A program made the translations under genes and the position numbers. DNA of 64,000 nt from Natronohydrobacter sp. (GTDB taxonomy: Bacteria; Pseudomonadota; Alphaproteobacteria; Rhodobacterales; Rhodobacteraceae). Position 1 is the stretch's first letter; every line of letters begins with the position of its first letter. The notes below the pieces were generated by a model that searched no databases, was not told where the DNA came from, and saw nothing but the letters and a program-made list of their open reading frames with translations. Where the stretch lies: positions 62,001 to 126,000 of the forward strand of contig JAUVXF010000007.1 of NCBI GenBank assembly GCA_030603695.1, given 5' to 3'. This document shows positions 16,100 through 32,090 of this stretch, piece by piece.

Positions 16100-17638
16100 T
16101 CAGTCTTGTGTGCCAGAGGCTTGGCTTGTCTTGGCGTAAGTGGCCATTTCCCGCTTCAGCCGCGCGGCGCGCATGGTGGCGCGAATGATCATCACCACCG
16201 AAAACGCGGTCAGGCACAGAAACAGGATGGTAATCGGCCCGCGTGCAAAGATGCTCAGATCCCCGCGTGACATCAGCATGGCTTGGCGGAAATTGTTTTC
16301 CAGCATCGGCCCAAGGATAAAGCCGATCAGAAACGGCGCTGCGGGCACGCGCAAAAGCAGCATGATATACCCCACAACCCCCATCACCAGCATCACCGCC
16401 ACATCAAAGATCGAATTATTGACGGCATAAACCCCGAACACACACAGCACCAGAACCCCCGGAAACAGCAGGTTGGAGGGGACATCGGCAATATAGCGGA
16501 ACAGGCGGATGGCGATAGAGCCAATTATCAGCAGCAAAAGCGAACTGGCAATAAGCCCGATGAACAGCGCATAGACGATATCGGCATTGTTCAGAAACAG
16601 CAGCGGCCCCGGTGTCAGGTTATGCACCATGAATGCGCCGATGATGATGGCGGTAATCACATCGCCCGGAATACCCAGAGACAGAAGCGGGATAAGCGTT
16701 GCGCCTGCCACGCCGTTATTGCCTGCCTCTGCGGCGGCCACGCCTTCCAATTCACCCTTGCCAAAATTCTCGCGGTTGGGGGAGGCGCGGCGCGCTTCAG
16801 AATAGGACAAAAACGCCGAAGGGGCCGCGCCAATGCCGGGGATCGCACCCAGGAATACGCCAATCGCACTGCCGCGAAAGATGGATTTCAGGCAGCGCCG
16901 GAAATCCAGCCATTTCAGCCGTGAATAGCCCATGCCGCGCACGCGGTGATCCTGCGCTTCGGATTTGCGCATGTAAGAGATGATTTCAGGCAGCGCGAAG
17001 AGGCCAATCAACACCGCGATAAAGTTCAGCCCGCCCCGCATATCGATAGAGCCGAATGTCAGCCGCTCTGTGCCAGCGATAAAATCCAGCCCGATCGTGG
17101 CCAGCATCAGCCCCAGCCCTGCCGCGACAATCCCCTTGACCAGACTATCCCCCGACACACCCGCAATGATGGTAAGGGAAAAGACGATCAGCGTGAACAT
17201 CTCTGGCGGGCCGAAATTAAGCGCGAAAGACGCAAGCCATGCGGCAAAGACAATAAGCGCAAGGTTGGAGATGAGATCGGCGATGCAAGAGGCATAAAGC
17301 GACATGCTCAGCGCCTCGCCCGCGCGGCCCTGTTCAGCCATCGGATAGCCATCCAGCGCCGTGGCGGAAGATGCAGGCGTGCCGGGTGTTTTTATCAAAA
17401 TGGCCGGGATAGAGCCGCCGAAAATGCCGCCTTTATAGACGCCCAACAGTAGCAAAATGCCGAAAATCGGTTGCAGGGCAAAGGTGAAAGGCAGAGTCAG
17501 GGCCACGGCCATGGTGGCCGACATGCCCGGAATAGCCCCGGCAATCACCCCGATTGTCACGCCAAGCCCCAGAAAGAAGATGCTTTCCCATTGCGCAACA
17601 AGCGTAAACCCTGCGCTCAGGGCTTCTAGGAATGTCAT
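16100..17638 (-). CDS. tctA: Tripartite tricarboxylate transporter, large permease TctA
   Basis: A 512-residue inner-membrane permease with about twelve hydrophobic segments. Family blocks are GAIPGMSATMAVALTLPFTF at the N-terminus, GGSIPAILIKTPGTPASSAT (about 73-92), and the internal-repeat counterpart GAIPGIGAAPSAFLSYSEAR. With TctB and the periplasmic binding protein TctC it forms a secondary, ion-coupled importer for carboxylates such as citrate, tartrate or related acids. It overlaps tctB by 4 nt (ATGA). The transported compound is presumably the substrate of the surrounding catabolic genes. Confidence 0.95.
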   Translation of the reverse strand: MTFLEALSAGFTLVAQWESIFFLGLGVTIGVIAGAIPGMSATMAVALTLPFTFALQPIFGILLLLGVYKGGIFGGSIPAILIKTPGTPASSATALDGYPMAEQGRAGEALSMSLYASCIADLISNLALIVFAAWLASFALNFGPPEMFTLIVFSLTIIAGVSGDSLVKGIVAAGLGLMLATIGLDFIAGTERLTFGSIDMRGGLNFIAVLIGLFALPEIISYMRKSEAQDHRVRGMGYSRLKWLDFRRCLKSIFRGSAIGVFLGAIPGIGAAPSAFLSYSEARRASPNRENFGKGELEGVAAAEAGNNGVAGATLIPLLSLGIPGDVITAIIIGAFMVHNLTPGPLLFLNNADIVYALFIGLIASSLLLLIIGSIAIRLFRYIADVPSNLLFPGVLVLCVFGVYAVNNSIFDVAVMLVMGVVGYIMLLLRVPAAPFLIGFILGPMLENNFRQAMLMSRGDLSIFARGPITILFLCLTAFSVVMIIRATMRAARLKREMATYAKTSQASGTQD

Positions 17639-18126
17639 GGCAACCTCACGATCTGGCCTTGGGGTATGGCAACCCCGGCAACCTTGGTGAAAAAGAAATA
17701 CAGCGCCAGTGGCAGCACAACAGCCGTCACCAGCCCCCAGCCCAGATTGCCGCCCCCGCTCAGCAGCAGCAGAAGCGCAAAGGCGATCATGCAGACCCAG
17801 ACCATGCCAAGAATGGGCAGCGCAAAATAAATCCCCACAAGGATCGCGCCCAGAGCCAGCAGCCGCAGCCCTTCGGCACGCGAAACGGAAAGATCATCCG
17901 CCACAGCATTTGGCGTTTTCGGGGCAAGGGCCGCGCGAAGTGTCAGCGCCGCGCCGCATATCAGCACCACCCAAGCGATAATTTTGGGCCAAAAGGCTGG
18001 CGAAAGGGCCTTTATCGGCACGCGCCGGGGTGTGGCGATAAAGTTGGGGATGATCCACCACAGGGTGAATGCCGCCAAAACCATAACGCCCAAACCGATC
18101 AAGATTTCATCACGACGCGAGAGCAT
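17635..18126 (-). CDS. tctB: Tripartite tricarboxylate transporter, small permease TctB
   Basis: A 163-residue protein with four predicted transmembrane helices, the usual TctB size and topology (MLSRRDEILIGLGVMVLAAF at the N-terminus; VWVCMIAFALLLLLSGG in the third helix). Sequence conservation in TctB is low, so assignment relies on topology plus position between tctC and tctA. Its stop overlaps the tctA start by 4 nt. A perfect 11-bp hairpin (18177-18200) lies in the 107 bp between tctC and this gene and could set the ratio of binding protein to permease. Confidence 0.9.
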   Translation of the reverse strand: MLSRRDEILIGLGVMVLAAFTLWWIIPNFIATPRRVPIKALSPAFWPKIIAWVVLICGAALTLRAALAPKTPNAVADDLSVSRAEGLRLLALGAILVGIYFALPILGMVWVCMIAFALLLLLSGGGNLGWGLVTAVVLPLALYFFFTKVAGVAIPQGQIVRLP

Positions 18127-18233: not shown

Positions 18234-19211
18234 TCACTCGATTTCAAGATCAAGCGCCACAACAAGGCGGCGGAAAATCTCGTAGGCATCATTTACAAAC
18301 TTCACCGAGTCCTCTGGCGACATGAGTTCGACAATAGAGCCGCCTGTCGTCATGAAACGGTTGAAATCTTCATCTTGCACGGCCTCTGCCAGCCATTCGC
18401 CCCATTTTTCCACCACATCATCGGGCAGATCGGCAGGGCCTGCAATGCCTGTCCAGCCCACAAGTGCCGCCAGTTCGGGTTTGCCCAATTCATGCACCGT
18501 GGGGGCATCAAACCCTTCCAGCCGCTCCGAGGATGTGACCATCAGGGGCCGCATCTGGCCACTGGCGATAAAGGGCGCAGCCGGCGAGGTGCTGCCGCAG
18601 AAGAAATCTGCCGTGCCTTGCAAAACCGCTGTCAGGCCCTGCCCGTCACCCTCGGTGGGGATATGGATGACGTTTTCATCCAGATCACCAATGCCATAAG
18701 CATCCAGCACCATCAGCGCCCCGAAATGTGGCAAAGATCCAACGCCGGAAGAGCTGTAAAGCACTGTGCCGGGGCGATCCTGCACGGCATTGATCAGATC
18801 ATCCAATGTCTGGAATTCGGATTCGTCTCTGACCACGCAGGCTACCGGGTTGATTTCATACACCCCGATAAAGCGGAATTCTTCCAGCGTATAGGGCAGG
18901 TTGGGGTTCATAGCCGGGTTGACAGTATGAGAGCCAACGCGCGCCAGAAGCAACGTATAGCCATCGCCATCCGCATCACGCACCGCGACAGAACCCGTAG
19001 CCCCGCCCGCGCCGGCGCGGTTTGTCAGCACCAAGGGTTGCGGGATGATTTGCGACAAGGGGGTGGACAAAGCGCGGGCCGAAAGATCGGTCGCGCCGCC
19101 GGGGCCGAAAGGAATGATCATCTGGATGGCGCGTGTGGGGTATTCGGCCAGGGCGGGCAAGGCGGTGGCCAGGGCTGCGCCCATGCTCAGTGCGGTTAAC
19201 GTGGTTTTCAT
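18234..19211 (-). CDS. tctC: Tripartite tricarboxylate transporter substrate-binding protein TctC
   Basis: A 325-residue periplasmic binding protein of the Bug/TctC family. The signal peptide is MKTTLTALSMGAALATALPALA. The mature part opens with the family motif YPTRAIQMIIPFGPGGATDL, followed by NRAGAGGATGSVAVRDADGD in the second block and a PGTVLYSSSGVGS ligand-loop segment. It captures the carboxylate for TctAB. It is the second gene of its operon, 123 bp after the TPP enzyme. The C-terminus is rich in Asp/Glu. Confidence 0.94.
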   Translation of the reverse strand: MKTTLTALSMGAALATALPALAEYPTRAIQMIIPFGPGGATDLSARALSTPLSQIIPQPLVLTNRAGAGGATGSVAVRDADGDGYTLLLARVGSHTVNPAMNPNLPYTLEEFRFIGVYEINPVACVVRDESEFQTLDDLINAVQDRPGTVLYSSSGVGSLPHFGALMVLDAYGIGDLDENVIHIPTEGDGQGLTAVLQGTADFFCGSTSPAAPFIASGQMRPLMVTSSERLEGFDAPTVHELGKPELAALVGWTGIAGPADLPDDVVEKWGEWLAEAVQDEDFNRFMTTGGSIVELMSPEDSVKFVNDAYEIFRRLVVALDLEIE

Positions 19212-19334: not shown

Positions 19335-21014
19335 TTAATGCGTCATTGCCGGGGCCGGGCTATTACCCTGCACAACCGGCGCAGGCGCGGGGCAGATACG
19401 CAGATTTACACAGGCAGGGCGCTGCGCGGCCAGCGCATCGCGCAACGTCTTTTCCAGCGCGGCGCTGTCATTGCTGGCCAGATAGGCCCCAAAACAGCCA
19501 AGCGCTTCGGCCGCCAGATCATAGCGCGCGCCCTCCGACAGGGTGCACCCAAAGGTGCGATCTGGCCCAAATTCGCGGATCTGGATCTGATGTTCGGCAT
19601 TCCACACAGTATCATTGCCGATAATCGCCACAAAGCGCGCGCCTTCGCGGGCAGCGGTTTCATATTCGGCCAGCAAAAAACCGGCCGTGCCATCGCCCAT
19701 AGCCGCAAAAACGGGCATATCGGGGCAAGCAAGGCTGGCGGCAATGGCATAGGCAGGCCCTGCCCCAATCGCGCCAGATACACCGTTTATCACGCGCGGC
19801 CCGTCATGGGGGATGGCCTGCATCCATTGGCCAAATTCGCCACCATCACAGATAAGCACTGCGCCGGGATGGGCGGCAAGCTGCGCTTGCAGTGCCGCGC
19901 CCACTTGGGCTGCGTGAAATTCCGGCTTTTCCGGCGCGGGGGGCATGGGAGCGCGTTTGGCCAGCGCCTCTGCCGCCTCTGCCAGCCATGGGGCGCGAGC
20001 GGGGGCGGGCGCCGCATGGGCCACAAGCGCTTGCAGCGCAGGCAGCGGATCGGCACAAAGCGCAAATTCCAGCCGCGCACCAAGCCGCGCCCTTGCACGC
20101 GCCAGCGCGGTGTCTTCCGGGTCGATCACGGCAAAGCGGGCATCTGGCGCGCCCATATCCTTGCCCATGAACCCGGTGGTAAAATCCGCCTGTTTGCCCA
20201 ATAGCAAAATGCGATCGGCGCGGCGTGTCAGGTCTGTCAGCGCGCCATGGGCCGGATCACGCAGGCCGCGCGGGCTTTCCATGCAGATAACCGGGGCCGC
20301 AAGCGCCGCTTGCAACTGGGCTTGTGCAGCCCCCGTGCGGGTGCGTGCCAGACTGGGGCCAAGCAGCACTAGCGGGCGCTCTGCCCCTTGTACAAAGGCG
20401 GCCACTGCGGCGGCATCCGCATCGGCCAACGCCTGCACCTGTGGGGCGAAGGACAGGGTTTGCGTGGTGGCAGGGGCGGCATCTGTCAGCACATCGGCAG
20501 GCAAGGCAAGATGCACCGGGCCGGGACGGCCCGCACGCGCAGCCCGCACCACTTGCGCAAATTCCGAGGCCAGCGCGTCGGGCGTGCTGGCGCGCAGGGC
20601 CAGTTTGGTGACAGGCCGCGCCATGGCAACCTGATCCATTTCCTGAAACGCGCCCATGCCGTCCTGGACGCGTGGCGAATCGCCACTTAACAGCACAAGC
20701 GGCGTTTCAGACGCCTGCGCCGAAATCAGCGCGCCCAGCGCATTGCCAAACCCGGCCCCCGCCGTGACCAGCGCCACGCCAATCTGGCCTGTCAGCTGCG
20801 CCCATGCTTCGGCCATATAGACGGCTGCGGCTTCGTGCCGGACATGGACAAGGCGAATGTCGCTATCCAGCAACGCATCATAAACCGGCATGATCTGATT
20901 TCCCGACAGGGAAAAAACACAGCGCACCCCGGCATCTTGCAGGCTGCGCACAAGGGCATCTGCCCCACGAATGGTGGTATTGTCTCGCACAGGCACTCCT
21001 CCTGCCGTGATCAT
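19335..21014 (-). CDS. Thiamine-pyrophosphate-dependent enzyme, acetolactate-synthase-like
   Basis: A 559-residue protein with the full three-domain layout of the TPP family. The N-terminal pyrimidine-binding domain has catalytic Glu61 in VRHEAAAVYMAEAW. The central domain spans about 190-330. The C-terminal PP-binding domain has a GDGTAGFLLAEYE...IGND metal motif. Members include acetolactate synthase, oxalyl-CoA decarboxylase, sulfopyruvate decarboxylase and sulfoacetaldehyde acetyltransferase. The sequence looks closest to acetolactate-synthase-like catabolic enzymes. It lacks the AHEC-type signature I associate with sulfoacetaldehyde acetyltransferase. It is the first gene of the left arm of the island, so it probably acts on an oxo-acid from the imported substrate. 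The exact reaction is unknown. Confidence 0.85.
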   Translation of the reverse strand: MITAGGVPVRDNTTIRGADALVRSLQDAGVRCVFSLSGNQIMPVYDALLDSDIRLVHVRHEAAAVYMAEAWAQLTGQIGVALVTAGAGFGNALGALISAQASETPLVLLSGDSPRVQDGMGAFQEMDQVAMARPVTKLALRASTPDALASEFAQVVRAARAGRPGPVHLALPADVLTDAAPATTQTLSFAPQVQALADADAAAVAAFVQGAERPLVLLGPSLARTRTGAAQAQLQAALAAPVICMESPRGLRDPAHGALTDLTRRADRILLLGKQADFTTGFMGKDMGAPDARFAVIDPEDTALARARARLGARLEFALCADPLPALQALVAHAAPAPARAPWLAEAAEALAKRAPMPPAPEKPEFHAAQVGAALQAQLAAHPGAVLICDGGEFGQWMQAIPHDGPRVINGVSGAIGAGPAYAIAASLACPDMPVFAAMGDGTAGFLLAEYETAAREGARFVAIIGNDTVWNAEHQIQIREFGPDRTFGCTLSEGARYDLAAEALGCFGAYLASNDSAALEKTLRDALAAQRPACVNLRICPAPAPVVQGNSPAPAMTH

Positions 21015-21248: not shown

Positions 21249-21977
21249 GTGACACAACGCGAAACCATAACCGTTACAGTGCAGCGCGGCAGCGCGGCCA
21301 CGGGCCAACAGGCGCAGGAATTTCAGGTTCCCGCCTATGAAAGCCAGACCGTGCTGGATGTTGTGTCATGGATACAACAAAACACCGACCCAACGCTGAC
21401 ATATCGCTTTGCCTGCCGCGTGGGCATGTGCGGATCATGTGCCATGATGGTCAATGGCGTGCCGCGCTGGACATGCCGAACCCATGTTAAAAAAGTGCTC
21501 AAAGATCAGCGGATCGATATCGCGCCCCTGCGCAATCTGCCTGTTCTGAAAGATCTGGCTGTGGATATGGATCCGTTTTTTGACAAATGGGTTGCCGCAG
21601 AAGGGCGCCACCACCCCACAGCGGGCCGCGAAGAACCCATCCCCGCCATCAACCCCGAAGCGCAAAACCGGCAGGTGGCCAGTGCGGGGATTGAATGCAT
21701 CAACTGTTCTATCTGCTATGCCGCATGCGACACTGTGGCCAATGATCCCGATTATCTTGGCCCCGCCGCGCTGCAACGGGCGTGGACGCTGTATAATGAT
21801 GCCAAAGATGCCGATCGCAGCGCGATTCTGGATGCGGTTTCGGGCAAAGGGGGCTGTCATTCGTGCCACTCTATGGGGTCTTGCACGACCTATTGCCCCA
21901 ATGGGCTTGATCCGCTTTCGGCCATTGCCGGGCTAAAACGCGCCACAACGCGGCGCTTTTTCGGGGGGGGTGCGTGA
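21249..21977 (+). CDS. Succinate dehydrogenase/fumarate reductase-like iron-sulfur subunit
   Basis: A 242-residue SdhB/FrdB paralogue. The N-terminal ferredoxin domain binds [2Fe-2S] through CRVGMCGSCAMMVNG and a later Cys in RWTC. The C-terminal domain has CINCSICYAAC for [4Fe-4S] and CHSMGSCTTYCPNG for the remaining cluster ligands. It should carry electrons from the flavoprotein to quinone. I chose GTG 21249 (MTQRETITVTV) because GGAAGG sits 5-6 nt upstream. The track start at 21189 adds 20 AT-rich, unconserved residues. It opens a seven-gene run with 1-4 nt overlaps. Confidence 0.92.
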   Translation: MTQRETITVTVQRGSAATGQQAQEFQVPAYESQTVLDVVSWIQQNTDPTLTYRFACRVGMCGSCAMMVNGVPRWTCRTHVKKVLKDQRIDIAPLRNLPVLKDLAVDMDPFFDKWVAAEGRHHPTAGREEPIPAINPEAQNRQVASAGIECINCSICYAACDTVANDPDYLGPAALQRAWTLYNDAKDADRSAILDAVSGKGGCHSCHSMGSCTTYCPNGLDPLSAIAGLKRATTRRFFGGGA

Positions 21978-22318
21978 TGACAGCTTTTCATCTGTATATG
22001 GCACAGCGGCTAAGTGCGCTGGTGATGGCGCCCTTTGTTCTGGTGCATCTGGGGGTGATGATCTACGCCATCCAGGGCGGCCTGACAGCCGCCGAAATCT
22101 TGGGCCGCACGCAAGGATCGCTGTTCTGGTTTCTGTTTTACGGGATGTTCGTGATCGCTGTGGCGCTGCATGCCGCACTTGGGCTGCGCGTTATTCTGGC
22201 CGAATGGGCGGGCTTGCGCGGGGGCGTGCTGAACGGGGTGAGCACGGCCATTGGGCTGGGGCTGCTGGGCCTTGGCGCGCATGCCGTTTGGGCCGTAACG
22301 GCAGGGGGTGGCGCATGA
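21974..22318 (+). CDS. Complex-II-like membrane anchor subunit (SdhC-like)
   Basis: A 114-residue integral membrane protein with three hydrophobic helices (SALVMAPFVLVHLGVMIYAI; LFWFLFYGMFVIAVALHAAL; IGLGLLGLGAHAVWAV). HLGVM and ALHAALGL supply histidines of the kind that ligate heme b in complex II anchors. The start overlaps the iron-sulfur gene by 4 nt. The sequence is too divergent for a motif-only assignment, so the call relies on topology, histidine placement and gene order. Confidence 0.85.
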   Translation: MMTAFHLYMAQRLSALVMAPFVLVHLGVMIYAIQGGLTAAEILGRTQGSLFWFLFYGMFVIAVALHAALGLRVILAEWAGLRGGVLNGVSTAIGLGLLGLGAHAVWAVTAGGGA

Positions 22319-22656
22319 GCCGGGTTGCGCGCGCCCATCCCTTGTGGCTGGCCTATATCCTGCACCGCCTGTCCGGGCTGCTGCTGGCGCTGTTCCTGCC
22401 GTTTCATTTCCTTGTGCTGTCACTGGCGCTGCACAATGCGGCGCGGTTGGATTCGTTTCTGACATTGGCCGAAATCCCGGTGATCAAGCTGAGTGAAACG
22501 GCGCTGGTTTTCCTGCTGGCCGTGCATATGTTCGGCGGCTTGCGGCTGATGGCGCTGGAATGGCTGCCGTGGTCGGGGGCGCAGAAAACATGGGCCGCCA
22601 GCGCCACGGCCGGGGCTTTCTTCCTCTCTTTCCTCTTCCTGATGCGGGCAATCTGA
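22315..22656 (+). CDS. Complex-II-like membrane anchor subunit (SdhD-like)
   Basis: A 113-residue membrane protein with three predicted helices. HPLWLAYILHRLSGLLLALFL resembles the quinone-site helix of SdhC/FrdC proteins (R-x-S-G). LAVHMFGGLRLMALEW supplies a candidate heme-ligating histidine. ATG 22315 overlaps the previous gene by 4 nt, and the flavoprotein follows after 1 bp. Together with its partner it would anchor the complex in the inner membrane and reduce or oxidise quinone. Confidence 0.85.
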   Translation: MSRVARAHPLWLAYILHRLSGLLLALFLPFHFLVLSLALHNAARLDSFLTLAEIPVIKLSETALVFLLAVHMFGGLRLMALEWLPWSGAQKTWAASATAGAFFLSFLFLMRAI

Positions 22657-22657
22657 C

Positions 22658-24421
22658 ATGTTCACACTCAAAGATATCGACCGCCATGATACGGATATCC
22701 TGATCCTTGGCACAGGGGGCGCGGGGTTGTTTGCCGCCCTTCATGCGCTGCAAACCGCGCCAGAGGGCACAAAGGTTACAATCGCCGTCAAAGGGCTGAT
22801 CGGCAAATGCGGCTGCACCCGCATGGTGCAGGGCGGCTATAATGTGGCGCTTGGCAATGGCGATACCGTAGAGCGCCATTTCATGGATACCATCCAAGGC
22901 GGCAAATGGCTGCCCAATCAGGAAATGGCATGGCGGCTGTGTGAACAGGCGGTGGTGCGTATCCGCGAGTTGGAAAACGAAATCGGCTGCTTCTTTGATC
23001 GCAACCCTGACGGCACGCTACACCAGAAGGCTTTTGCGGGCCAGACGGCAGACCGCACAGTGCATAAGGGCGATCTGACAGGGATAGAAATCATCAATCG
23101 CCTGATGGAACAGGTTTTGGCCCGCCCTGTGGAAAAGCTGCAAGAGCATCGCGCCATTGGCCTGATCCCCACGCGCGACGGATCGGCCCTTGCAGGTGTG
23201 CTGATGATCGATATGCGCACAGGCCGTTTCCGCTTTGTGCGGGCCAAAACGGTGCTTATGGCCACGGGTGGCGGGCCGACAATGTATAAATATCACACCC
23301 CCAGCGGCGACAAGACAATGGACGGGCTGGCCATGGCGCTGCGTGTGGGCCTGCCCTTGCGCGATATGGAAATGGTGCAATTCCACCCCACGGGGCTGCT
23401 TGCAGGCGATCATACGCGCATGACAGGCACAGTGCTGGAAGAGGGCTTGCGCGGCGCGGGTGGGCAACTGATCAACCATGCCGGACAGCGCTTCATGTTT
23501 GATTATGATGGCAAGGGCGAGCGCGCCACGCGCGATGTTGTCAGCCGCGGCATTTATGCCGAAATGCGCAAGAACAATAACCCGGAACAAGAGGGCGTTT
23601 TCCTGTCCATGGCCCATCTTGGCCCCGAATGGGTGGCCAAAAAGTTCAAGGGCATGGTGGAACGCTGCGCCGATTGCGGCTTTGATCTGGCGGGCGGCAA
23701 AGTAGAGGTTGTGCCAACCGCGCATTACTTCATGGGCGGCGTAGTGGTGGATGTAGATACCCGCACGGCACTGGAGGGCCTGTATGTGGCCGGAGAAGAT
23801 GCGGGCGGCGCGCATGGATCAAACCGCTTGGGCGGCAATGGCGTGGCAAATTCCACGGTTTTTGGCGGCATTGCAGGCGATGTGATGGGCATGGATATTC
23901 GCACCATGGGCGCATTGCGTGACCCCGATCTGGGCGTGCTGGAAGCAGAACTTGCCCGCGCCTGCCATCCTTTGGGGGTAAAGCCGGGCCATGTCTTGCC
24001 GCTGCGCCAGCGCTTGCAAAATGTGATGTGGGATGAGGTGGGCGTCATGCGCACCGAGGCCGGGCTGAAACGGGGCTTGAGCGGGATTGCCGAAGTGTCA
24101 GAGGCGCTGATGCAAACTGGCGTATCCGCCGAAATGCTGGCCTTCAACCTGACATGGCATGACTGGCTGAACCTGCGTTCCCTGTGTGACATATCCGAGG
24201 TGATCACCCGCGCGGCGCTGGAGCGTGACAATTCGCGCGGCGCCCATTACCGAGAGGATTTCCCCGATCCCGGCGCGATGGAGGACAGCTATTTCACTGT
24301 TGCCCGCGCCAATGGCGGCCGGGTGGAAATGCACCGCGAGGCCGTGCAATTCACCCGTGTTCGCCCCGGCGAAACCGTGCTTCCCGCAGGGGAGCCAGAA
24401 ACATTGGTGGCCGCACAATGA
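22658..24421 (+). CDS. Succinate dehydrogenase/fumarate reductase-like flavoprotein with Cys in place of the FAD-linking His
   Basis: A 587-residue SdhA/FrdA paralogue. FAD-binding GTGGAGLFAALHAL lies at 18-31. The substrate and catalytic residues are kept: FHPTGLL (242-248), EGLRGAGGQL with the proton-shuttle Arg265, a His in TAHYFMGG, and HGSNRLGGNG. At the covalent-FAD site, KCGCTRMVQGG has Cys53 where SdhA/FrdA have His (as in SHTVSAQGG). FAD is thus probably non-covalent, which usually changes redox potential and direction. It should oxidise or reduce a C4-type dicarboxylate. Retained arginine and histidines suggest a succinate-like or substituted-succinate substrate. ATGA overlap joins it to the fumarase-like genes. 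Confidence 0.92.
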   Translation: MFTLKDIDRHDTDILILGTGGAGLFAALHALQTAPEGTKVTIAVKGLIGKCGCTRMVQGGYNVALGNGDTVERHFMDTIQGGKWLPNQEMAWRLCEQAVVRIRELENEIGCFFDRNPDGTLHQKAFAGQTADRTVHKGDLTGIEIINRLMEQVLARPVEKLQEHRAIGLIPTRDGSALAGVLMIDMRTGRFRFVRAKTVLMATGGGPTMYKYHTPSGDKTMDGLAMALRVGLPLRDMEMVQFHPTGLLAGDHTRMTGTVLEEGLRGAGGQLINHAGQRFMFDYDGKGERATRDVVSRGIYAEMRKNNNPEQEGVFLSMAHLGPEWVAKKFKGMVERCADCGFDLAGGKVEVVPTAHYFMGGVVVDVDTRTALEGLYVAGEDAGGAHGSNRLGGNGVANSTVFGGIAGDVMGMDIRTMGALRDPDLGVLEAELARACHPLGVKPGHVLPLRQRLQNVMWDEVGVMRTEAGLKRGLSGIAEVSEALMQTGVSAEMLAFNLTWHDWLNLRSLCDISEVITRAALERDNSRGAHYREDFPDPGAMEDSYFTVARANGGRVEMHREAVQFTRVRPGETVLPAGEPETLVAAQ

Positions 24422-25383
24422 CCCAGCATATCCCGCTTTCCCTGATCCAATCCACAGCGCAAACCCTGATGGAGAAAGCCGCAATCGAAATCCCGCAAGA
24501 TTACCTTGATGGGCTGAAACGCGCGGCAGACACCGAGGATGGGGATTTGTCGTCTTTCGTGCTGCGCGCCATGCTGGACAATTACGAGGCCGCAAAAGAA
24601 GATCGCCGCGCCATGTGCGGTGATACTGGCGTGCCGCGCTGGTTTGTGAAACTGGGCAATGATGCGCGCGTAGAGGGCGGCATGGTTGCACTGGAAGGCG
24701 CGCTGCGCCGCGCCACGGCCCATGCCACAAACTCTGTGCCTTTGCGCCCGAACCGTGTGCACCCCCTGTGGCGCACCGATCACGATAATAACGTGGGGAT
24801 TGGTGCGCCCGAAATCGAATACGGGTTTGAACCAAGCGGCGATTGGATAGATCTGATCACCGTGCATAAAGGCGGCCTTTTTGGCACGGATTACCGCATG
24901 CTCTTTCCCTCGGACGGGATACAGGGGATCAAGCGGTTTTATCTGGATAGCCTGATGGCCTTTGGCAAGCGCGGGCTGGCCTGCCAGCCTGCGATTATCG
25001 GCATCGGGCTTGGGGGGTCTAAAGATATCTGCATGACCCTTGGCAAGCGCGCCTCTGTCTTGCGCACCGTGGGCAGCCGCAATTCAGACCCGCGCATTGC
25101 CGCAATGGAGGATGAATTCAAGGAATTGGGCAATTCCATCGGCATGGGGGCAATGGGCTTTGTGGGCAAGAACATGGTGATCGATTGCAATATCGAGGTG
25201 GGCTATTGCCACACAGGCGGCATGCCCATGTCTGTGCATGCGTTTTGCCTGTCTTCCCGGCGCGCGGTGGCGCGGCTTTGGCCCGATGGGCGGGTGGAAT
25301 ACCGCACCGATCCCGATTGGTTTACCCCCTATCAGCGCCGCGAAACCGTAGATTGGGAACCTGTGCAGGAGGCCGCAGAATGA
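24418..25383 (+). CDS. Class I fumarase/tartrate-dehydratase-like hydratase, alpha subunit
   Basis: A 321-residue protein of the fumarate hydratase/L(+)-tartrate dehydratase alpha-subunit family (Fe-S hydro-lyase). Conserved blocks with candidate [4Fe-4S] cysteines are RRAMCGDTGVPRWFVKLG (about 62-79), RGLACQPAIIGIGLGGSKDI and the CHTGGMPMSV segment. It pairs with the beta subunit directly downstream (4 nt overlap). It adds or removes water across a C=C in a dicarboxylate. The same operon encodes the preceding dehydrogenation step, so it should hydrate the product of the flavoprotein. Divergence from canonical fumarase suggests a substituted fumarate as substrate. Confidence 0.88.
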   Translation: MTQHIPLSLIQSTAQTLMEKAAIEIPQDYLDGLKRAADTEDGDLSSFVLRAMLDNYEAAKEDRRAMCGDTGVPRWFVKLGNDARVEGGMVALEGALRRATAHATNSVPLRPNRVHPLWRTDHDNNVGIGAPEIEYGFEPSGDWIDLITVHKGGLFGTDYRMLFPSDGIQGIKRFYLDSLMAFGKRGLACQPAIIGIGLGGSKDICMTLGKRASVLRTVGSRNSDPRIAAMEDEFKELGNSIGMGAMGFVGKNMVIDCNIEVGYCHTGGMPMSVHAFCLSSRRAVARLWPDGRVEYRTDPDWFTPYQRRETVDWEPVQEAAE

Positions 25384-26045
25384 AACCGCGCGAAATCCGC
25401 CTGTCCACCACCCCCACACCAGAGGCCATTGCCGAATTGCGGCTGGGCGATATCGTTTATCTGGACGGGTTGATGTATACCGCGCGCGAGGGCGTGTATA
25501 TGCGCGCACTGGAAGAGAAGGCCAATATCCCCATGGAATTGCCCTCGGAAAGTGCCGCCAATTTCCATTGCTCGCCCGCCGCGCGGATCAATGCCGATGG
25601 CTCTTTCGATATGGGCGCGGTGACGGCCACGGCCTCTTTCCGCTTTGCCAAATGGTTGCCCGAATGGATGGCAAAAACCGGGGCAAAGCTGATTATCGGC
25701 AAAGGCGGCATGAGTTCGCGCGATTACAAGGAATATTTCGTGCCCAATGGCGCGGTGTACCTCTCTACCGTGGGCTATGGCACGGGCGCGCTGCTGGGGC
25801 GCGGGGTGGAAAATGTTGAAGCCGTGCATTGGAACGAGGAATTGGGCCTTGCCCAAGCCATGTGGGTTATCCGCTGCAACAAGATGGGGCCGTTTATCGT
25901 GGCCTCTGATCTGAATGGCGATTGCCTGTTTGAACGCGAGAATGCCAAGATTGCTGAAAACATTGCCCGCGTTTATGAAGGGACAAAACCCGCCGTGCTG
26001 AAACGCTATGGCGAAACCGATGACAGGTCTGACGAGGTGATCTGA
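25380..26045 (+). CDS. Class I fumarase/tartrate-dehydratase-like hydratase, beta subunit
   Basis: A 221-residue beta-subunit homologue. The family's swivelling domain is visible from LRLGDIVYLDGLMYTARE to the GKGGMSSRDYKEYFVPNGAVY block, which corresponds to the substrate-binding KGG motif, and the VHWNEELGLAQAMWVIRC segment. It completes the two-subunit hydro-lyase with the gene just upstream (ATGA overlap). The stop overlaps the start of the sulfite-oxidase-family gene by 1 nt (TGATG), so all three are translationally linked. Confidence 0.88.
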   Translation: MKPREIRLSTTPTPEAIAELRLGDIVYLDGLMYTAREGVYMRALEEKANIPMELPSESAANFHCSPAARINADGSFDMGAVTATASFRFAKWLPEWMAKTGAKLIIGKGGMSSRDYKEYFVPNGAVYLSTVGYGTGALLGRGVENVEAVHWNEELGLAQAMWVIRCNKMGPFIVASDLNGDCLFERENAKIAENIARVYEGTKPAVLKRYGETDDRSDEVI

Positions 26046-27136
26046 TGCGTGACAGCCCTTTCCAACCCGGCGCTGCGCGCGCCGCAACCCCCGAATTTAC
26101 CCGCGCCGAAGTGGCGCTGGCCAATCGCAATTCGGGTGCGCTGCTGGAATTGCTGGATTGTGACATCACCCCCACAGGCACGCATTATCTGCTTAATCAC
26201 TTCGATGTGCCGGTTTTGCGCGCGCAAGATCATGTGTTGGAATTTGACGGCGCATTTGATGCGCCCTACACCTTAAGCATGGCCGAAATCATGGCCCAGC
26301 CGCAAGTCACCCTGCCTGTGACGCTGGAATGCGCTGGCAATGGCCGCGCAGGGATGGAACCGCGCCCCCTGTCCATGCCCTGGATGTATGAGGCCGTTGG
26401 AACATCGGACTGGACAGGCACACCCCTTGCCCCCCTGCTGGAACGCGCAAAACCGCGCGGCAGCGTGCAGGATTTTGCGTTTTTCGGGGTGGATTTTGGC
26501 TATGATAAAGGCATTCCCCACCATTATGGCCGCAGCCTGACCCCGGCAGAGGTGGCGGGGCTGGATGCCCTGCTTGTCTGGGGCATGAATGGCGCCCCCC
26601 TTTTGCCGCAACATGGCGCACCTTTGCGGCTGATCGTGCCGGGCTGGTATGGCATGGCCTCTGTCAAATGGCTGGGCCGCATTACGGCGCTGGAAACACG
26701 GTTTGACGGGTTTCAGCAGGCGGAAACCTACCGCTTTCGCACCCATAAGGACGATGAGGGCCGGCCCGTGACGCAAATTCATGTCCGTTCGCTGATAAAA
26801 CCGCCCGGCGTGCCCGATTGGTTTAGCCGTATGCGCCGGGTGCAGGCAGGGCCTGTGGCGCTGTCGGGGCGGGCATGGTCTGGCGGCGGTGTGCCGATCG
26901 CCAAGGTGGAGGTGCTGTTGGACGGGGCATGGCAGCAGGCACAGCTTGCACCCCCGCAAGGGCGCTACGCCTGGACGCGCTGGCAGATTGACTGGCAGGC
27001 AACCCCCGGCCAGCATGAAATCGCCTGCCGTGCCACAGATGCCGCAGGCAACACACAGCCGCTTACCGCCCCCTATAATCTGGGCGGCTTTGCCAATAAC
27101 GCGCCGCACCGCGTGACGGTAGAGGTGGTGGATTAA
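26045..27136 (+). CDS. Sulfite-oxidase-family molybdopterin enzyme without export signal
   Basis: A 363-residue SUOX-fold protein. The molybdenum-cofactor domain contains TLECAGNGRAGMEP (95-107) with Cys96 as the expected Mo ligand, the block LLVWGMNGAPLLPQHGAPLR, and PGWYGMASVKWLGRI. A C-terminal Mo-co dimerisation domain follows (about 270-360, VQAGPVALSGRAWSGGGVPI). There is no Sec or Tat signal, unlike most periplasmic SorA/SoxC/MsrP relatives, so it should be cytoplasmic. Characterised members oxidise sulfite to sulfate or reduce methionine sulfoxide. As the last gene of the catabolic arm it may detoxify sulfite released from the substrate, which is an inference. Confidence 0.85.
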   Translation: MRDSPFQPGAARAATPEFTRAEVALANRNSGALLELLDCDITPTGTHYLLNHFDVPVLRAQDHVLEFDGAFDAPYTLSMAEIMAQPQVTLPVTLECAGNGRAGMEPRPLSMPWMYEAVGTSDWTGTPLAPLLERAKPRGSVQDFAFFGVDFGYDKGIPHHYGRSLTPAEVAGLDALLVWGMNGAPLLPQHGAPLRLIVPGWYGMASVKWLGRITALETRFDGFQQAETYRFRTHKDDEGRPVTQIHVRSLIKPPGVPDWFSRMRRVQAGPVALSGRAWSGGGVPIAKVEVLLDGAWQQAQLAPPQGRYAWTRWQIDWQATPGQHEIACRATDAAGNTQPLTAPYNLGGFANNAPHRVTVEVVD

Positions 27137-27225: not shown

Positions 27226-27963
27226 CTATCGCCTTGCGAATAGACGGTAATAGGCCCAATCCGGCAGAAAATTCGCACCCCGGAACAGGGAAGCAAACAG
27301 GCGCGGAAAGGCTCGCTGAAAGCGCTGCCCGCGCATGAGGATCATCATTTCTTCCGCCGCCTGCTCTGGCTCCATCAGGAACGGCATGGAAAAATTGTTC
27401 TTGTCTGTCAGGCGCGTGCGGATAAAGCCGGGATTGGCCAGCTGCACATCCACACCCGACCCCCGCAAATCGCAATACAGGCATTCTGCCAGATGCATCA
27501 GACCCGCCTTGCTGGAGCTATAGCCAATAGAGCCGGGCAAACCCCGATAGCCCGATAACGAGCCTGTAATCACGATATGCCCCGCCCCGCGCGCCACCAT
27601 GGCGGGAACAACCTGCCCCAGCACCCGCGCGGCCCCGGTCAGATTCACATCAAACATGGCCTCTGTCTGCGCGCTATCCCATGCCGTTGCCGGGAAAGGC
27701 CAATATACCCCGGCCAGATATACCAGCCCATCCACCGCGCCCACCTCTTGCGCGGCGGCGGCAACTGACCCACGGTCTGACACATCGCAGCACACCACGC
27801 GCGCAGGCCCCGGCAGGCTGGCGGCCAGATCGGCAAGCGCGCTCTCGCTGCGCGCACTCAGCACCACAGAGGCGCCCGCCGCCGACAGCTTTTGCGCCAA
27901 GGCCCGCCCCAAGCCTTCAGACGCGCCCACCAGCCAATAGCTTTTGCCTGCAAATTCCCTCAT
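27226..27963 (-). CDS. Short-chain dehydrogenase/reductase, last gene of the RpoE-linked operon
   Basis: A 245-residue classical SDR. The NAD(P)-binding motif VGASEGLGRAL (12-22), VYLAGVYWP (the NNAG-equivalent), ITGSLSGYRG with catalytic Ser, and YSSSKAGLMH with the YxxxK pair are all present. The substrate is unknown, although the operon context suggests lipid oxidation products. It is the most distal of five minus-strand genes that start at the RpoE-type promoter at 31872-31901, and it overlaps the DUF3833 gene by 4 nt. Confidence 0.9.
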   Translation of the reverse strand: MREFAGKSYWLVGASEGLGRALAQKLSAAGASVVLSARSESALADLAASLPGPARVVCCDVSDRGSVAAAAQEVGAVDGLVYLAGVYWPFPATAWDSAQTEAMFDVNLTGAARVLGQVVPAMVARGAGHIVITGSLSGYRGLPGSIGYSSSKAGLMHLAECLYCDLRGSGVDVQLANPGFIRTRLTDKNNFSMPFLMEPEQAAEEMMILMRGQRFQRAFPRLFASLFRGANFLPDWAYYRLFARR

Positions 27964-28526
27964 ATCTCTGCCTTGCGCATCACGGCCACCAATTCGGCCA
28001 CCTTTATCCCGAATTTGCGAAACTGGCTGCGGTTGATGATGGTCTTGTCATCGATCAGATACATCCAGTCTGTCACTTGCAGCGCATGGCCCCCCGCGCT
28101 TTCCGGCAGGCGGATGGTATAGCTCAGATGCAGTGCAGCGCCCTCTTGCTTGCCTGTGCCCTTGCCCACCAGATCATCAGCCTCTGCGGTAACGCGGCCA
28201 TCATTGCCCAGCGTCAAACGCCATTCGCGATCTTGCTGTGTGCCGCTGTCATAGGTGAAATGTTCTGCCAGCGTGCCGCGATTGCCATCCCAGCGCCCCT
28301 CCATATCCGCCACAAAGCGCGAGGAAACGCGGCCCAAAGGCCCGTAGATCACCCCTTCACAGCGGATCGGGCCAGACAGGTGCTGGCGGATATCTATAGC
28401 GGGCGTAGTCTTCGCGTAATCGGCGGGCTTTTGGGCAATGAAGCCCGCAAATCTTTGCCCAAGCGCCAAAAGCGCAAGCATAAGCACCATGCCTATCAGA
28501 AGCGCAAATACTGTGCTCATGCTCAA
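27960..28526 (-). CDS. DUF3833 family protein
   Basis: A 188-residue protein with one N-terminal membrane anchor (MSMSTVFALLIGMVLMLALL) and a beta-rich extracytoplasmic domain. Characteristic segments are IRCEGVIYGPLGRVSSRFVA and VTDWMYLIDDKTIINRSQFR with the following KFG. DUF3833 genes are repeatedly found in clusters with an ECF sigma factor/ChrR, an amine-oxidase-like gene and DUF1365. Function is unknown, though a lipid-binding role is plausible from the fold type. It overlaps both neighbours by 4 nt. Confidence 0.82.
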   Translation of the reverse strand: MSMSTVFALLIGMVLMLALLALGQRFAGFIAQKPADYAKTTPAIDIRQHLSGPIRCEGVIYGPLGRVSSRFVADMEGRWDGNRGTLAEHFTYDSGTQQDREWRLTLGNDGRVTAEADDLVGKGTGKQEGAALHLSYTIRLPESAGGHALQVTDWMYLIDDKTIINRSQFRKFGIKVAELVAVMRKAEI

Positions 28527-29776
28527 CTCTCCTTCAAAGGGGTCAGCGCCAGAAGCGCGATGGCCAAAACCTTCAATGCCGAAGGCAGGGCCGCATATAA
28601 CAGGATCAGGGTTTCAAGGGCGGCGGGGCTATTCTCGGCCCCTGCCTCAAACCCCGACCATTCCAGCGCGGGAAAGACCATCAGCGCCGCAAGCGCCAGC
28701 GTAGCCTTGGTCACAAAGGCCCAAAGGCCAAAACCCTTGGCCGCTTCGGGCGATAATTCGGCCATGCGGCGCGAGAATATGGCGGGCAACAGTGTCAGAT
28801 CCGCACCGATGCCCGCGCCAGAGATAACGCAGATCACGGCAAACAGCGCCAGATCACCGGGGCCAAGCGTGGTGACAAAGGCAAAGCTGGCCGCCGCCAG
28901 CGCCATGCCCGACAAAAGCGCGGTCTTGGCCCCCATGCGCCGCGCCAGCCGCGCCCAAAGCGGGGCAGATACGGCGGCAGACAGAAACAGAAGGATCAAA
29001 AGCGGCCCCTCCATTCCGCCCGCTTGCAAAACGGCCTCGGCATAGAACAAAAACAGCGTAGAAGTGATGGCAACCGGCGTTGCATTCACCAGCGCGACAA
29101 TCAACAAGCGGCGCGCTGTGGTATCGGCCAGCACATCGCGCAGTGACAGCCCCGCCATGTCAGAGATGACCCGCGCGCGCGGCCATTCTGCCCGCATGGC
29201 CCAGACCGCGGCCAACGTAATCACCAGAAAGCCCAGCGCAAAGCCCGTGAAGGGCCGCGCCATGATCCCCCCCAGCGCCACAGGGGCCGCCGCCGCAAGG
29301 CAGACGCCCAAAAGCGCGCCTGTCTCGCGCCAGCCAGCAAGAAAGACATGCCCGCCCGCCCCCAGCGCATCGCCCCGCGCCACACCCGTGGCGTAAAAGC
29401 AGATTGTCAGGAAGGAATAGCACGAAAACAACACAACCAGCGCAATCGCAAACCAGATCAGCGGCGCAAAAAGCGGCGGGATGGCAAACAGCATCAGCAT
29501 CGCGGCCGCCATAAGCGCGGCTGTCAGCGCCACGGCAAGCCCGCGCTGTGCCGCAAGCCGCGCGGCAAGCCAGCCCAAAGCCGGGTCTTGCAGGAAATCA
29601 AGGCCGCGCAACACAAACAGCACTGTCCCCAGCGCCGCCAGCGACACGCCATATTCATTCACATAGAAAAACGGCGCGTGAATATAGATCGGCAATCCGG
29701 CCATGGCCAATAGCCCGCCAAACAGCGCATAACCCCATAGCGCGGGGCGGCGATATGTGGCGGCGGCGGTGGTCAC
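28523..29776 (-). CDS. MFS transporter (GPH/sugar-cation symporter-like)
   Basis: A 417-residue membrane protein with about twelve hydrophobic helices. LRGLDFLQDPALGWLAARLA resembles the loop 2-3 region of glycoside-pentoside-hexuronide cation symporters. In Rhodobacter the RpoE-controlled operon also holds an MFS gene at this relative position. The cargo is unknown. A lipid or lipid-derived signal is possible from context, but nothing in the sequence shows it. It overlaps the DUF1365 and DUF3833 genes by 4 nt each. Confidence 0.87.
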   Translation of the reverse strand: MTTAAATYRRPALWGYALFGGLLAMAGLPIYIHAPFFYVNEYGVSLAALGTVLFVLRGLDFLQDPALGWLAARLAAQRGLAVALTAALMAAAMLMLFAIPPLFAPLIWFAIALVVLFSCYSFLTICFYATGVARGDALGAGGHVFLAGWRETGALLGVCLAAAAPVALGGIMARPFTGFALGFLVITLAAVWAMRAEWPRARVISDMAGLSLRDVLADTTARRLLIVALVNATPVAITSTLFLFYAEAVLQAGGMEGPLLILLFLSAAVSAPLWARLARRMGAKTALLSGMALAAASFAFVTTLGPGDLALFAVICVISGAGIGADLTLLPAIFSRRMAELSPEAAKGFGLWAFVTKATLALAALMVFPALEWSGFEAGAENSPAALETLILLYAALPSALKVLAIALLALTPLKES

Positions 29777-30543
29777 TGGCTAACCTCTTGTGCGGGGGGC
29801 GTTGGGCGGTTGTGAAACTTTGCACCCCGCCACCACAGTTTCAGCGCTTGCCAATGGATCAGCGCCAGCACGCGGCGCGACCCAAGCCGCGCCACCATTG
29901 CGCTCAGAATGGCGCGCGTGCGCAGGGGTTTGCGCGGGCCTGTCAGGGTTGCCACCAGCCCCGCGCCGGGGGCTTCTGTGTCTTGGCTATAGCCAATGCG
30001 GATGGCGATTTTCTCGGCCGTGATATCCACATGAAAGGAATATTCCCCCTCTGCCGGCTGGAAGGGCGACACATGAAAAATTTTCTGCGCGCGCAATTCA
30101 TCTTGCGGCCCGATGACCGTATGATCGGGTTTGACGCAAAGATAGGAATGCCTGTCGCCGTAGGTATTGTTCACCTCGGCAATCATGGCACGCAAACCGC
30201 CCTCGGGATCATGGCACAGCCAGAAACTGACAGGGTTGAACAGATGGCCCAGAATGCGCGGCTGCGTCAGCAACAGCACGCGCCCTGCGGCCAGATCTGC
30301 CAGCCCATGCGCGGCCAGCACCTCGCGCACCCACAGAGCACCGCGCCCCTGCCCCGGTGCGCCGCCATGATCGCGGTCATGCAGCGCCGCAATATTGCGG
30401 CGGTTGCGCGACAGAAACCGCGGCAAGCGCAACTCTGCCTCGGCATCAAACAGCACATAATCCACGCCATAGGTAAAGCGGTTGCGCACTGGCCCGCGCC
30501 TGCCGTGATAGGTTTGGCCTGCGATATGTTCCACAATGCTCAT
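29773..30543 (-). CDS. DUF1365 family protein
   Basis: A 256-residue protein with the DUF1365 pattern: HRRGPVRNRFTYGVDYVLFD near the N-terminus, LLTQPRILGHLFNPVSFWLC in the centre, VNNTYGDRHSYL, and FHVSPFQPAEGEYSF. The family is almost always next to an amine-oxidase-like flavoprotein and often next to a cyclopropane-fatty-acid-synthase-like methylase. Homologous genes of the RpoE regulon in Rhodobacter have been linked to furan fatty acid formation. I recall the pathway but not which locus tag matches this gene. Here the methylase is missing. Confidence 0.85.
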   Translation of the reverse strand: MSIVEHIAGQTYHGRRGPVRNRFTYGVDYVLFDAEAELRLPRFLSRNRRNIAALHDRDHGGAPGQGRGALWVREVLAAHGLADLAAGRVLLLTQPRILGHLFNPVSFWLCHDPEGGLRAMIAEVNNTYGDRHSYLCVKPDHTVIGPQDELRAQKIFHVSPFQPAEGEYSFHVDITAEKIAIRIGYSQDTEAPGAGLVATLTGPRKPLRTRAILSAMVARLGSRRVLALIHWQALKLWWRGAKFHNRPTPPAQEVSQ

Positions 30544-31841
30544 GCGACAGAGGCCAATTTGCGCGCACGCGCCTCCATGGCCTGCGCCACATCGACAGCA
30601 CTGGCAAAGCCGTCTTCATGGAACCCGCTGCGCATCCAAGCCCCGCAAAACCAAGTCCGGTTTGTGCCGTTGAAAGCGCGGATATCGGCCTGCGCCTGCA
30701 AAGCGGCCATGTCATAAACCGGGTGATCAAAGCTGTATGTATCATAAATACACTCTTCGCGCACCGGGTGATTGGCGTTGAGTGTGACAAACATCAGATC
30801 ATCTTGCGGGATGGGCTGAAGCGAATTCATCCAGTAACTTAGCGAAATGCGCGCGCGGTCTTGTGGCCCGCGTTCGGTATAAACCCAGCTTGACCAGCAT
30901 TTGCGCCGCTTGGGCATGAAATCCGTATCGCAATGCAAGATGGCATCATTGGCCTGATACTTCACCGCGCCCAAGGATTTCGCTTCGGCCCCGGTGGGAT
31001 CGGCCAACAGGCGCAGGGTTACATCGGAATGTGTGGCGAAGATCACCTCGTCAAACTGCTCTTCCTCCATGCCCTCGGCCTTCACAAACACCCCCATCGG
31101 CCCGCGCCGCACCGATTGCACGGGGCAGGCCGCGCGCAAATTCACGCCCGCACGCGACAGATACGCTTCCAGCCTGCGCACATATTCGATGGAACCGCCC
31201 TGCACCGTGTACCACTGGTGCTGCCCCTCATAGCCCAAAAGCGCGTGATTGCGGAAAAACTCCATCATCGCATGGGCCGGGAAATCCAGAATTTTCTGTG
31301 TGGGGGTAGACCAGATCGCGCCCGAAAAGGGCAAAAGATACCGCTCGCGGAACCAATCGCCCGTGCCAAGCCGTTCCAACAGCCCGCCAATGCTCAGGCT
31401 TGGATCGGCCTGCGCCACGGCCAGACCGTTCTTGTTGAAATGCAAAATATCTCGCACCATCCGCCAATAGCGCGGATTGACCAGATTGGCGCGCGTGGCA
31501 AACACCTCGTCAATGCCGGAGAGCGAATATTCAAACGCCCCCTGCTGGAACGATGCCCCGAAAGACATGTTGGATTTTGCCACCGGCACCTCCAGCTTTT
31601 CAAACAGGGCCGTCAGATGCGGGTAATTGGTATAATTGAACACGATAAAACCGGTATCGACCGGCTGATCACCGCGCTTGCCCGCCATAACGGTGCGCGC
31701 ATGGCCGCCAAGGCGCGGCGCGGCTTCGAACAAAGTGACACGGTGCTGCTGAGACATGAGATAGGCACTGGCAAGCCCGGAGATGCCCCCGCCGATAACT
31801 GCAATCCTGCGGGTGGGGGTATCAAGTTTTTCAAATGGCAT
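30540..31841 (-). CDS. FAD-dependent amine-oxidase/desaturase-like protein, first gene of the RpoE-linked operon
   Basis: A 433-residue flavoprotein. The N-terminal dinucleotide-binding motif IAVIGGGISGLASAYLMSQQ (13-32) is followed by LFEAAPRLGGHARTV. The C-terminal FAD contact is NRTWFCGAWMRSGFHEDGFASAV. No signal peptide is seen. Proteins of this group with DUF1365 act on unsaturated or methylated phospholipid acyl chains in the furan-fatty-acid pathway of Rhodobacter, where a desaturase of this general type is known. The exact reaction here is inferred. ATG 31841 has AAGGAG upstream and sits 24-30 nt from the predicted RpoE transcription start. Confidence 0.87.
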   Translation of the reverse strand: MPFEKLDTPTRRIAVIGGGISGLASAYLMSQQHRVTLFEAAPRLGGHARTVMAGKRGDQPVDTGFIVFNYTNYPHLTALFEKLEVPVAKSNMSFGASFQQGAFEYSLSGIDEVFATRANLVNPRYWRMVRDILHFNKNGLAVAQADPSLSIGGLLERLGTGDWFRERYLLPFSGAIWSTPTQKILDFPAHAMMEFFRNHALLGYEGQHQWYTVQGGSIEYVRRLEAYLSRAGVNLRAACPVQSVRRGPMGVFVKAEGMEEEQFDEVIFATHSDVTLRLLADPTGAEAKSLGAVKYQANDAILHCDTDFMPKRRKCWSSWVYTERGPQDRARISLSYWMNSLQPIPQDDLMFVTLNANHPVREECIYDTYSFDHPVYDMAALQAQADIRAFNGTNRTWFCGAWMRSGFHEDGFASAVDVAQAMEARARKLASVA

Positions 31842-31871
31842 GCAGCCACTCCTTCATCGTCATTCTGGATA

Positions 31872-31901
31872 GGGTTACGCGCCGCGCAATCAGGCGGATC
31901 A
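31872..31901 (-). promoter_or_regulatory. RpoE-type promoter for the amine-oxidase operon
   Basis: On the minus strand TGATCC (31896-31901) is followed by exactly 18 nt and TAACCC (31872-31877). The Rhodobacter RpoE consensus as I know it is TGATCC-N18-TAAGA, so the -35 is perfect and the -10 keeps the TAA. Transcription would start near 31865, with a leader of about 24 nt containing AAGGAG. Confidence 0.75.
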
Positions 31902-31948
31902 ATCGGGAATAGATGTGATTTGCATATCTGTTTTTTTCTGGCCACAGG

Positions 31949-31978: not shown

Positions 31979-32090
31979 GAATATGTTTGATGTCGCACGC
32001 CCTCACCCTGCTTCTCGACAAGCCGCTTTGGCTGCGGATAAGATATTGGCACAAGGTGGGGAAACTTGCCGTGACAAAAGGCAATCGGCG

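Follow-up and report, generated by a model that had tools for sequence, protein, structure and literature searches.

3-Sulfopropanoate, which Cupriavidus necator H16 excretes, can be regarded as succinate in which a sulfonate takes the place of one carboxylate. According to PMC11489063, this compound is formed by gut bacteria from sulfoquinovose and is degraded by Roseovarius nubinhibens via sulfoacrylate and sulfolactate, the latter being a thesis result cited there; its formation from homotaurine by Cupriavidus is also on record (Mayer and Cook 2009, cited in PMC5320631). The R. nubinhibens route is known there by its metabolites, with no genes or enzymes named in that paper, and in the literature searched, which extended neither to subscription papers nor to theses, no gene assignment for 3-sulfopropanoate breakdown was found. 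Here we describe a locus of Natronohydrobacter sp. (Rhodobacteraceae; assembly GCA_030603695.1, contig JAUVXF010000007.1, positions 62,001 to 126,000, a stretch of 64,000 nucleotides hereafter called the window) in which homologues of complex II and of class I fumarase are followed by a sulfite-oxidase-family gene. We interpret it, with moderate confidence, as an operon for the breakdown of a C3 sulfonate, 3-sulfopropanoate being the most likely one, and the metabolites and step order that we predict match those of R. nubinhibens.

The closest described systems at the enzyme level are of four kinds. With the complex II flavoprotein family the locus shares the flavin adenine dinucleotide (FAD) domain, the C-terminal domain, the residues R292, H243, H356 and R390, and the SdhB/C/D partners. 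Its hydratase has the Fe-S cysteine loop, the alpha and beta subunits and the layout of class I two-subunit fumarase and L-tartrate dehydratase (TtdAB). A thiamine diphosphate (TPP) enzyme encoded beside them has the three-domain TPP architecture of Xsc and other TPP lyases, and the sulfite elimination proposed for it below is borrowed from Xsc. Finally, the known systems of sulfolactate degradation (SuyAB; SlcC with ComC; ComDE with Xsc) adjoin the SdhA/FumAB core in some loci and co-occur with it in genomes.

Gene content and predicted pathway

The following genes make up the locus (positions are those of the window).

21249-21977, plus strand: SdhB-like iron-sulfur subunit of the proposed 3-sulfopropanoate dehydrogenase (Pfam Fer2_3 and Fer4; dhsB model TIGR00384, 180 bits; orthologues in loci L006, L008 and L009)
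21974-22318, plus strand: SdhC-like membrane anchor (Pfam Sdh_cyt; conserved synteny)
22315-22656, plus strand: SdhD-like membrane anchor (conserved synteny)
22658-24421, plus strand: SdhA/FrdA-like flavoprotein, proposed catalytic subunit of 3-sulfopropanoate dehydrogenase (Pfam FAD_binding_2; PDB profile alignments; residue census; tree)
24418-25383, plus strand: class I fumarase alpha-like protein (FumA), proposed 3-sulfoacrylate hydratase (Pfam Fumerase; PDB alignment to 7xky and 6mso; residue census)
25380-26045, plus strand: class I fumarase beta-like protein (FumB), conserved partner of alpha (TIGR00723, 112.6 bits, below the curated cut-off of 145)
26045-27136, plus strand: sulfite-oxidase-family molybdenum protein, proposed cytoplasmic sulfite oxidation (Pfam Oxidored_molyb and Mo-co_dimer; SorA model NF052245, 159 bits, cut-off 600)
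19335-21014, minus strand: TPP-dependent enzyme, candidate sulfopyruvate decarboxylase/desulfonase (TPP_enzyme N, M and C; far below the Xsc cut-off)
18234-19211, minus strand: TctC-like solute-binding protein (Pfam TctC)
17635-18126, minus strand: TctB-like small transporter subunit (Pfam TctB)
16100-17638, minus strand: TctA-like large transporter subunit (Pfam TctA)
15326-16090, minus strand: TSUP (TauE/SafE) exporter, proposed sulfite or sulfonate efflux (Pfam TauE)
14426-15322, minus strand: LysR-type regulator, likely controlling the locus (LysR models; conserved beside the core)

The seven plus-strand genes (21249-27136) follow one another so closely, each junction being either an overlap of 1-4 bases or a gap of 1 base, that they form an operon. 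The start codon of SdhB is GTG, with an in-frame ATG upstream at 21189. All genes named in an earlier, sequence-only reading of this DNA are present, including the sulfite-oxidase-family gene that closes the operon. The product of this last gene begins with MRDSPFQPGAARAATPEF and carries neither a Tat signal nor, by eye, a signal peptide, in agreement with the cytoplasmic location assumed before. It has the molybdenum domain and the dimerisation domain of the SorA/SUOX family and retains the molybdenum-ligand cysteine in the alignment to SorA; its scores do not reach the equivalog cut-offs of SorA, SorT and SoxC. Sulfite oxidation is its predicted activity. The TSUP gene had been placed last in the opposite arm, a position that belongs instead to the LysR gene.

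In the route that we propose, TctCBA would take up 3-sulfopropanoate, SdhBCDA would oxidise it to 3-sulfoacrylate with transfer of electrons to quinone, and FumAB would hydrate 3-sulfoacrylate to 3-sulfolactate. The C-S bond would then be cleaved by the host's own sulfolactate route, either directly by SuyAB or by a sulfolactate dehydrogenase and then ComDE and Xsc, the dehydrogenase presumably being supplied from elsewhere in the genome (ComC, contig C19). Alternatively, the TPP enzyme may decarboxylate sulfopyruvate to the same carbanion as that of Xsc, with subsequent beta-elimination of sulfite. The sulfite formed would be disposed of by the sulfite-oxidase-family protein and TSUP.

Altered active sites of the flavoprotein and the hydratase

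The operon encodes the full set of complex II components, i.e., a flavoprotein, a 2Fe-2S/4Fe-4S subunit and membrane anchors, as judged by Pfam and NCBIfam matches to SdhA, SdhB and SdhC. In alignments to solved FrdA and succinate dehydrogenase (SDH) structures, the flavoprotein retains the catalytic arginine R292, the histidines H243 and H356, and the second arginine R390. In all 88 core SdhA sequences compared, however, the substrate threonine that holds a carboxylate is replaced by Glu261 and the histidine that binds FAD covalently by Cys53, both residues of succinate dehydrogenase proper being thus absent; the host's own SDH keeps the histidine and the threonine, and NadB keeps the threonine. 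The flavin at Cys53 could be cysteinyl-FAD or non-covalent FAD. Core SdhA is at most 39% identical to true SDH and, unlike it, stands in a sulfonate gene context. In a tree with host SDH, NadB and other homologues as outgroups, the core SdhA sequences formed one clade (support 99/99) apart from host SDH, NadB and two further outgroups.

These data bear on a rival explanation, that of an ordinary second succinate dehydrogenase and fumarase serving the Krebs cycle. The fold, the operon type and the main catalytic residues are indeed those of SDH and fumarase, but the host has its own SDH on contig C16, only 34% identical to the window SdhA-like protein, the pocket substitutions are invariant, and the operon is accessory in the genus, with the SdhA-like protein present in 4 of 18 genomes. 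We therefore regard this explanation as hardly credible.

The hydratase belongs to the class I fumarase superfamily (TIGR00722, 211 bits, cut-off 100; alpha and beta subunits; conserved Fe-S ligand Cys67). Unlike fumarase and TtdAB, the FumAB of the window falls below the named fumarase and tartrate dehydratase equivalog cut-offs (201.5 against 276 and 143 against 365 bits), and the substrate glutamine of the CQDTG loop, at position 68, is changed to glycine or alanine in 90 of 91 FumA members (Gly68 in the window) in a census that leaves out the M. oryzae row. Two residues are added, Arg74 (90/91) and the nearly invariant Arg113. By both the score and the substrate glutamine the protein is thus set apart from fumarase and tartrate dehydratase proper. 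In the SdhA-like and the FumA-like enzyme alike, the dicarboxylate site has been altered at one end, which would fit a substrate with one acid group other than a carboxylate; the sequence alone does not name that substrate.

Two variations around the hydratase were observed. In some loci a homocysteine-S-methyltransferase-like gene lies between FumA and FumB (L023:10955-11869, L081:11638-12549). Two haloarchaeal loci have no fumarase-like hydratase; there, an ArgH-like protein (L098:8281-9783, L099:8371-9873) is encoded beside FrdAB-like genes together with SuyAB. This protein may be a substitute hydratase; it matches the coenzyme M biosynthesis model XcbC (260 of the 575 bits required) but scores above the ArgH cut-off, so that the match is a hint only.

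Distribution of the core

The SdhA/FumAB core was found in about 95 loci, a number inflated by near-copies, and its arrangement is conserved far beyond chance. In a sample of 299 genomes of the family, about one per genus, 33 (about 11%) carry the core and 266 do not. A hydratase-based scan of named genomes, considered for the best 80 of at least 519 loci, placed it in Rhodobacterales and relatives, and a search of plasmids extended its range to Pseudorhizobium, Methylobacterium, Cupriavidus, Pseudomonas, Rhodococcus and two haloarchaea, with identities of 46-82%. Below these members there is a gap, since ordinary SDH, FrdA and NadB reach only about 35%. The operon is widely distributed among marine bacteria, soda-lake bacteria and haloarchaea.

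Sulfonate gene context

Neighbour statistics were based on the 69 loci flanked on both sides by 6 kb or more. A TSUP gene was found near the core in 53 of them; a core-bearing genome contains 6-9 TSUP genes, or roughly one in every 0.6 Mb, which gives a chance expectation near the core of about 3-4% and an enrichment of roughly twentyfold. Further neighbours across several phyla are SuyAB, ComC, SlcC, YeiH exporters, and SorA and SoxC with cytochromes; sulfite oxidases of the window type are neighbours as well. Xsc was encoded in 29/33 core-bearing versus 166/266 other genomes (p-value 0.003).

This context was weighed against the possibility of a non-sulfur substituted succinate of the methylsuccinate, itaconate or tartrate type, with sulfur genes nearby by chance. 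Both enzyme families do process substituted succinates or fumarates elsewhere, and 14 of the 69 loci had no detected sulfur genes closer than about 10 kb. Such a coincidence is difficult to reconcile with the TSUP and Xsc enrichments, the sulfite oxidase within the operon, and the SuyAB and ComC neighbours in haloarchaea and Methylobacterium, and we consider it quite improbable. That the locus serves sulfonate catabolism is well supported by gene context. The general outline of the sequence-only reading, i.e., a sulfonate substrate, dehydrogenation followed by hydration, and intracellular sulfite disposed of via sulfite oxidase and TSUP, is likewise supported, all of these activities being predicted.

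A nitroreductase-family protein (L091:7011-7838 and 28 other full-flank loci) is also a frequent neighbour of the core; it is rarely found with the TPP enzyme (1/20 versus 28/49, p-value 4e-5).

Fate of the hydration product

Addition of water to C2 of 3-sulfoacrylate would give sulfolactate, for which the host would need SuyAB or ComDE with Xsc, whereas at C3 it would let sulfite leave unaided. ComE was encoded by 19 of the 33 core-bearing genomes and by 50 of the 266 others (p-value 5e-6), and SuyB or ComE in 27/33 versus 93/266 (p-value 3e-7), an enrichment that persisted among Xsc-positive genomes (26/29 versus 79/166, p-value 1.4e-5). These frequencies support hydration to 3-sulfolactate. 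Spontaneous sulfite release from an alpha-hydroxysulfonate, as proposed in the sequence-only reading, is disfavoured because the enriched sulfolactate and sulfopyruvate enzymes would be superfluous if the product fell apart. Known [4Fe-4S] hydro-lyases chelate the alpha-hydroxy carboxylate of their substrates, which likewise favours the hydroxyl at C2.

The genes for downstream desulfonation of sulfolactate are present in the window genome, which differs from the linked loci in having them elsewhere, SuyAB and ComC on contig C19 and a true Xsc on C36. The C19 genes belong to a second sulfonate cluster (L113, G000:C19:44000-62000), with a HisD-like gene, a DegT-like gene, a short-chain dehydrogenase/reductase (SDR), a Zn alcohol dehydrogenase, a GntR-like regulator, ComC, SuyA, SuyB and YeiH; by eye, the HisD-like gene resembles HpsN, the dehydrogenase of dihydroxypropanesulfonate.

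A candidate desulfonating TPP enzyme

The TPP enzyme is not Xsc (132.6 bits to TIGR03457, cut-off 676); among solved structures, 2-hydroxyacyl-CoA lyase and benzaldehyde lyase come nearest to it. A homologue occurs in 16 of the 33 core genomes and adjoins the core in 12. Across loci, the enzyme is linked to the in-operon sulfite oxidase (11/12, p-value 9e-7). The homologue is present in each of the six core genomes that have neither SuyB nor ComE (p-value 0.007), three of which are also without Xsc, and for this reason the TPP enzyme may be the missing desulfonating step. It had no place in the scheme of the sequence-only reading and is still unexplained there, but becomes a candidate for desulfonation under the sulfolactate route.

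A bolder proposal follows the same line. The operon would be a complete, undescribed desulfonation module consisting of a cysteinyl-FAD complex II homologue, a sulfoacrylate-hydrating fumarase homologue, and a TPP enzyme that would both decarboxylate and desulfonate sulfopyruvate in a single step, uniting the roles of ComDE and Xsc. We put this forward tentatively and consider it rather unlikely in its entirety. A reaction of the TPP enzyme on malonate semialdehyde by Xsc-like elimination was dropped on chemical grounds, as carboxylate, unlike sulfite, cannot depart with the electron pair.

Identity of the sulfonate

Several orthologous loci carry, directly upstream of SdhB, a gene similar to succinate semialdehyde dehydrogenase (SSADH; TIGR01780, 628 against 646 bits) together with the gene of a Zn alcohol dehydrogenase. 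In the Pseudorhizobium NT-26 locus, one gene scores best with the sulfolactaldehyde reductase model (324 against 348 bits), and the gene after it carries an SSADH annotation. None of the 16 loci with the alcohol dehydrogenase has TctA, compared with 27 of the 53 other loci (p-value 1e-4), as expected if the pathway were entered either at the alcohol or at the acid. By analogy, the neighbour order parallels the series gamma-hydroxybutyrate, succinate semialdehyde, succinate, fumarate and malate with a sulfonate for one carboxylate, which would run from 3-hydroxypropanesulfonate via 3-sulfopropanal, 3-sulfopropanoate and 3-sulfoacrylate to 3-sulfolactate. Because SdhA and FumA of the window share about 85-91% identity with their counterparts in the SSADH-bearing loci, we infer the same substrate for the window locus.

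The sequence-only reading had favoured sulfosuccinate, which would be oxidised to 2-sulfofumarate, hydrated at the sulfonate-bearing carbon and split into oxaloacetate and sulfite. Its strength is that no extra enzyme is required, that a TctCBA-type carboxylate transporter and sulfite disposal genes are at hand, and that class I fumarases are able to hydrate the substituted carbon of mesaconate. With a sulfodicarboxylate, however, the linked genes for SSADH, alcohol dehydrogenase, sulfolactaldehyde-reductase-like protein and methylmalonate-semialdehyde dehydrogenase (MMSDH), which fit a C3 sulfonate, have no role, nor have the SuyAB, ComC and SlcC neighbours, the ComE enrichment or the TPP enzyme. 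Sulfosuccinate is, moreover, mostly man-made, which accords poorly with the wide natural spread of the operon, and the literature searches returned no gene-level report of its catabolism. On this evidence we judge sulfosuccinate to be an improbable substrate.

Evidence against 3-sulfopropanoate breakdown via sulfolactate

Several observations weigh against our interpretation. The window's own operon is without SSADH, alcohol dehydrogenase and sulfolactate dehydrogenase. SuyB alone was not enriched in core-bearing genomes (8/33 versus 45/266, p-value 0.33). The complementarity of the TPP enzyme weakens to a p-value of 0.16 when only core-adjacent TPP genes are counted, and the TPP counts cover the core genomes only. 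The statistics ignore phylogeny beyond the sampling of roughly one genome per genus. Finally, an MMSDH gene (TIGR01722, 695 bits, cut-off 448) follows FumB in the operon of Pseudomonas MPC6 and is divergent from the core in Cupriavidus P-10, suggesting malonate semialdehyde in those organisms. With regard to SuyAB, its co-occurrence alone was dropped as proof of sulfolactate, the informative test being ComE plus SuyB.

The MMSDH genes lead to the alternative that 3-sulfopropanoate is the substrate but that the hydroxyl is added to the sulfonate-bearing carbon, forming the bisulfite adduct of malonate semialdehyde, which would lose sulfite spontaneously and be converted by MMSDH to acetyl-CoA. 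This alternative keeps the chemistry of the sequence-only reading and exchanges the substrate; MMSDH is also encoded in the window genome, and the six core genomes without SuyB and ComE would agree with it. All six, though, have the TPP enzyme, and the strong association of the core with enzymes acting on sulfolactate or sulfopyruvate, as well as the preference of [4Fe-4S] hydro-lyases for a C2 hydroxyl, speak for sulfolactate, through which the R. nubinhibens route also runs (thesis result cited in PMC11489063). We regard hydration at the sulfonate carbon as an unlikely alternative, and retain hydration to 3-sulfolactate as the preferred route.

Surroundings of the locus in the window

Downstream of the operon, at 27226-33310, genes for an SDR, a lipocalin-like protein, a major facilitator superfamily transporter, a DUF1365-like protein, an FAD amine oxidoreductase, an extracytoplasmic function sigma factor and a ChrR-like cupin resemble, by eye, a singlet-oxygen RpoE-ChrR regulon. 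Spore-coat-U-like and usher-like genes at 41191-44675, shortly after a tRNA-Cys gene (40826-40899), possibly encode a chaperone-usher pilus, again as judged by eye.

Significance

If our interpretation is true, the operon would supply the missing genes for aerobic 3-sulfopropanoate breakdown, a sulfur-recycling route whose genes are apparently undescribed, and its core would serve as a marker for sulfonate turnover in the core-bearing fraction, about 11%, of the sampled family genomes. It would also present Krebs-cycle enzymes re-tuned from a carboxylate to a sulfonate, along with a candidate new desulfonating TPP enzyme. For the organism itself, this would mean that a bacterium of the soda-lake type feeds on a small sulfonated acid by means of altered copies of two Krebs-cycle enzymes.

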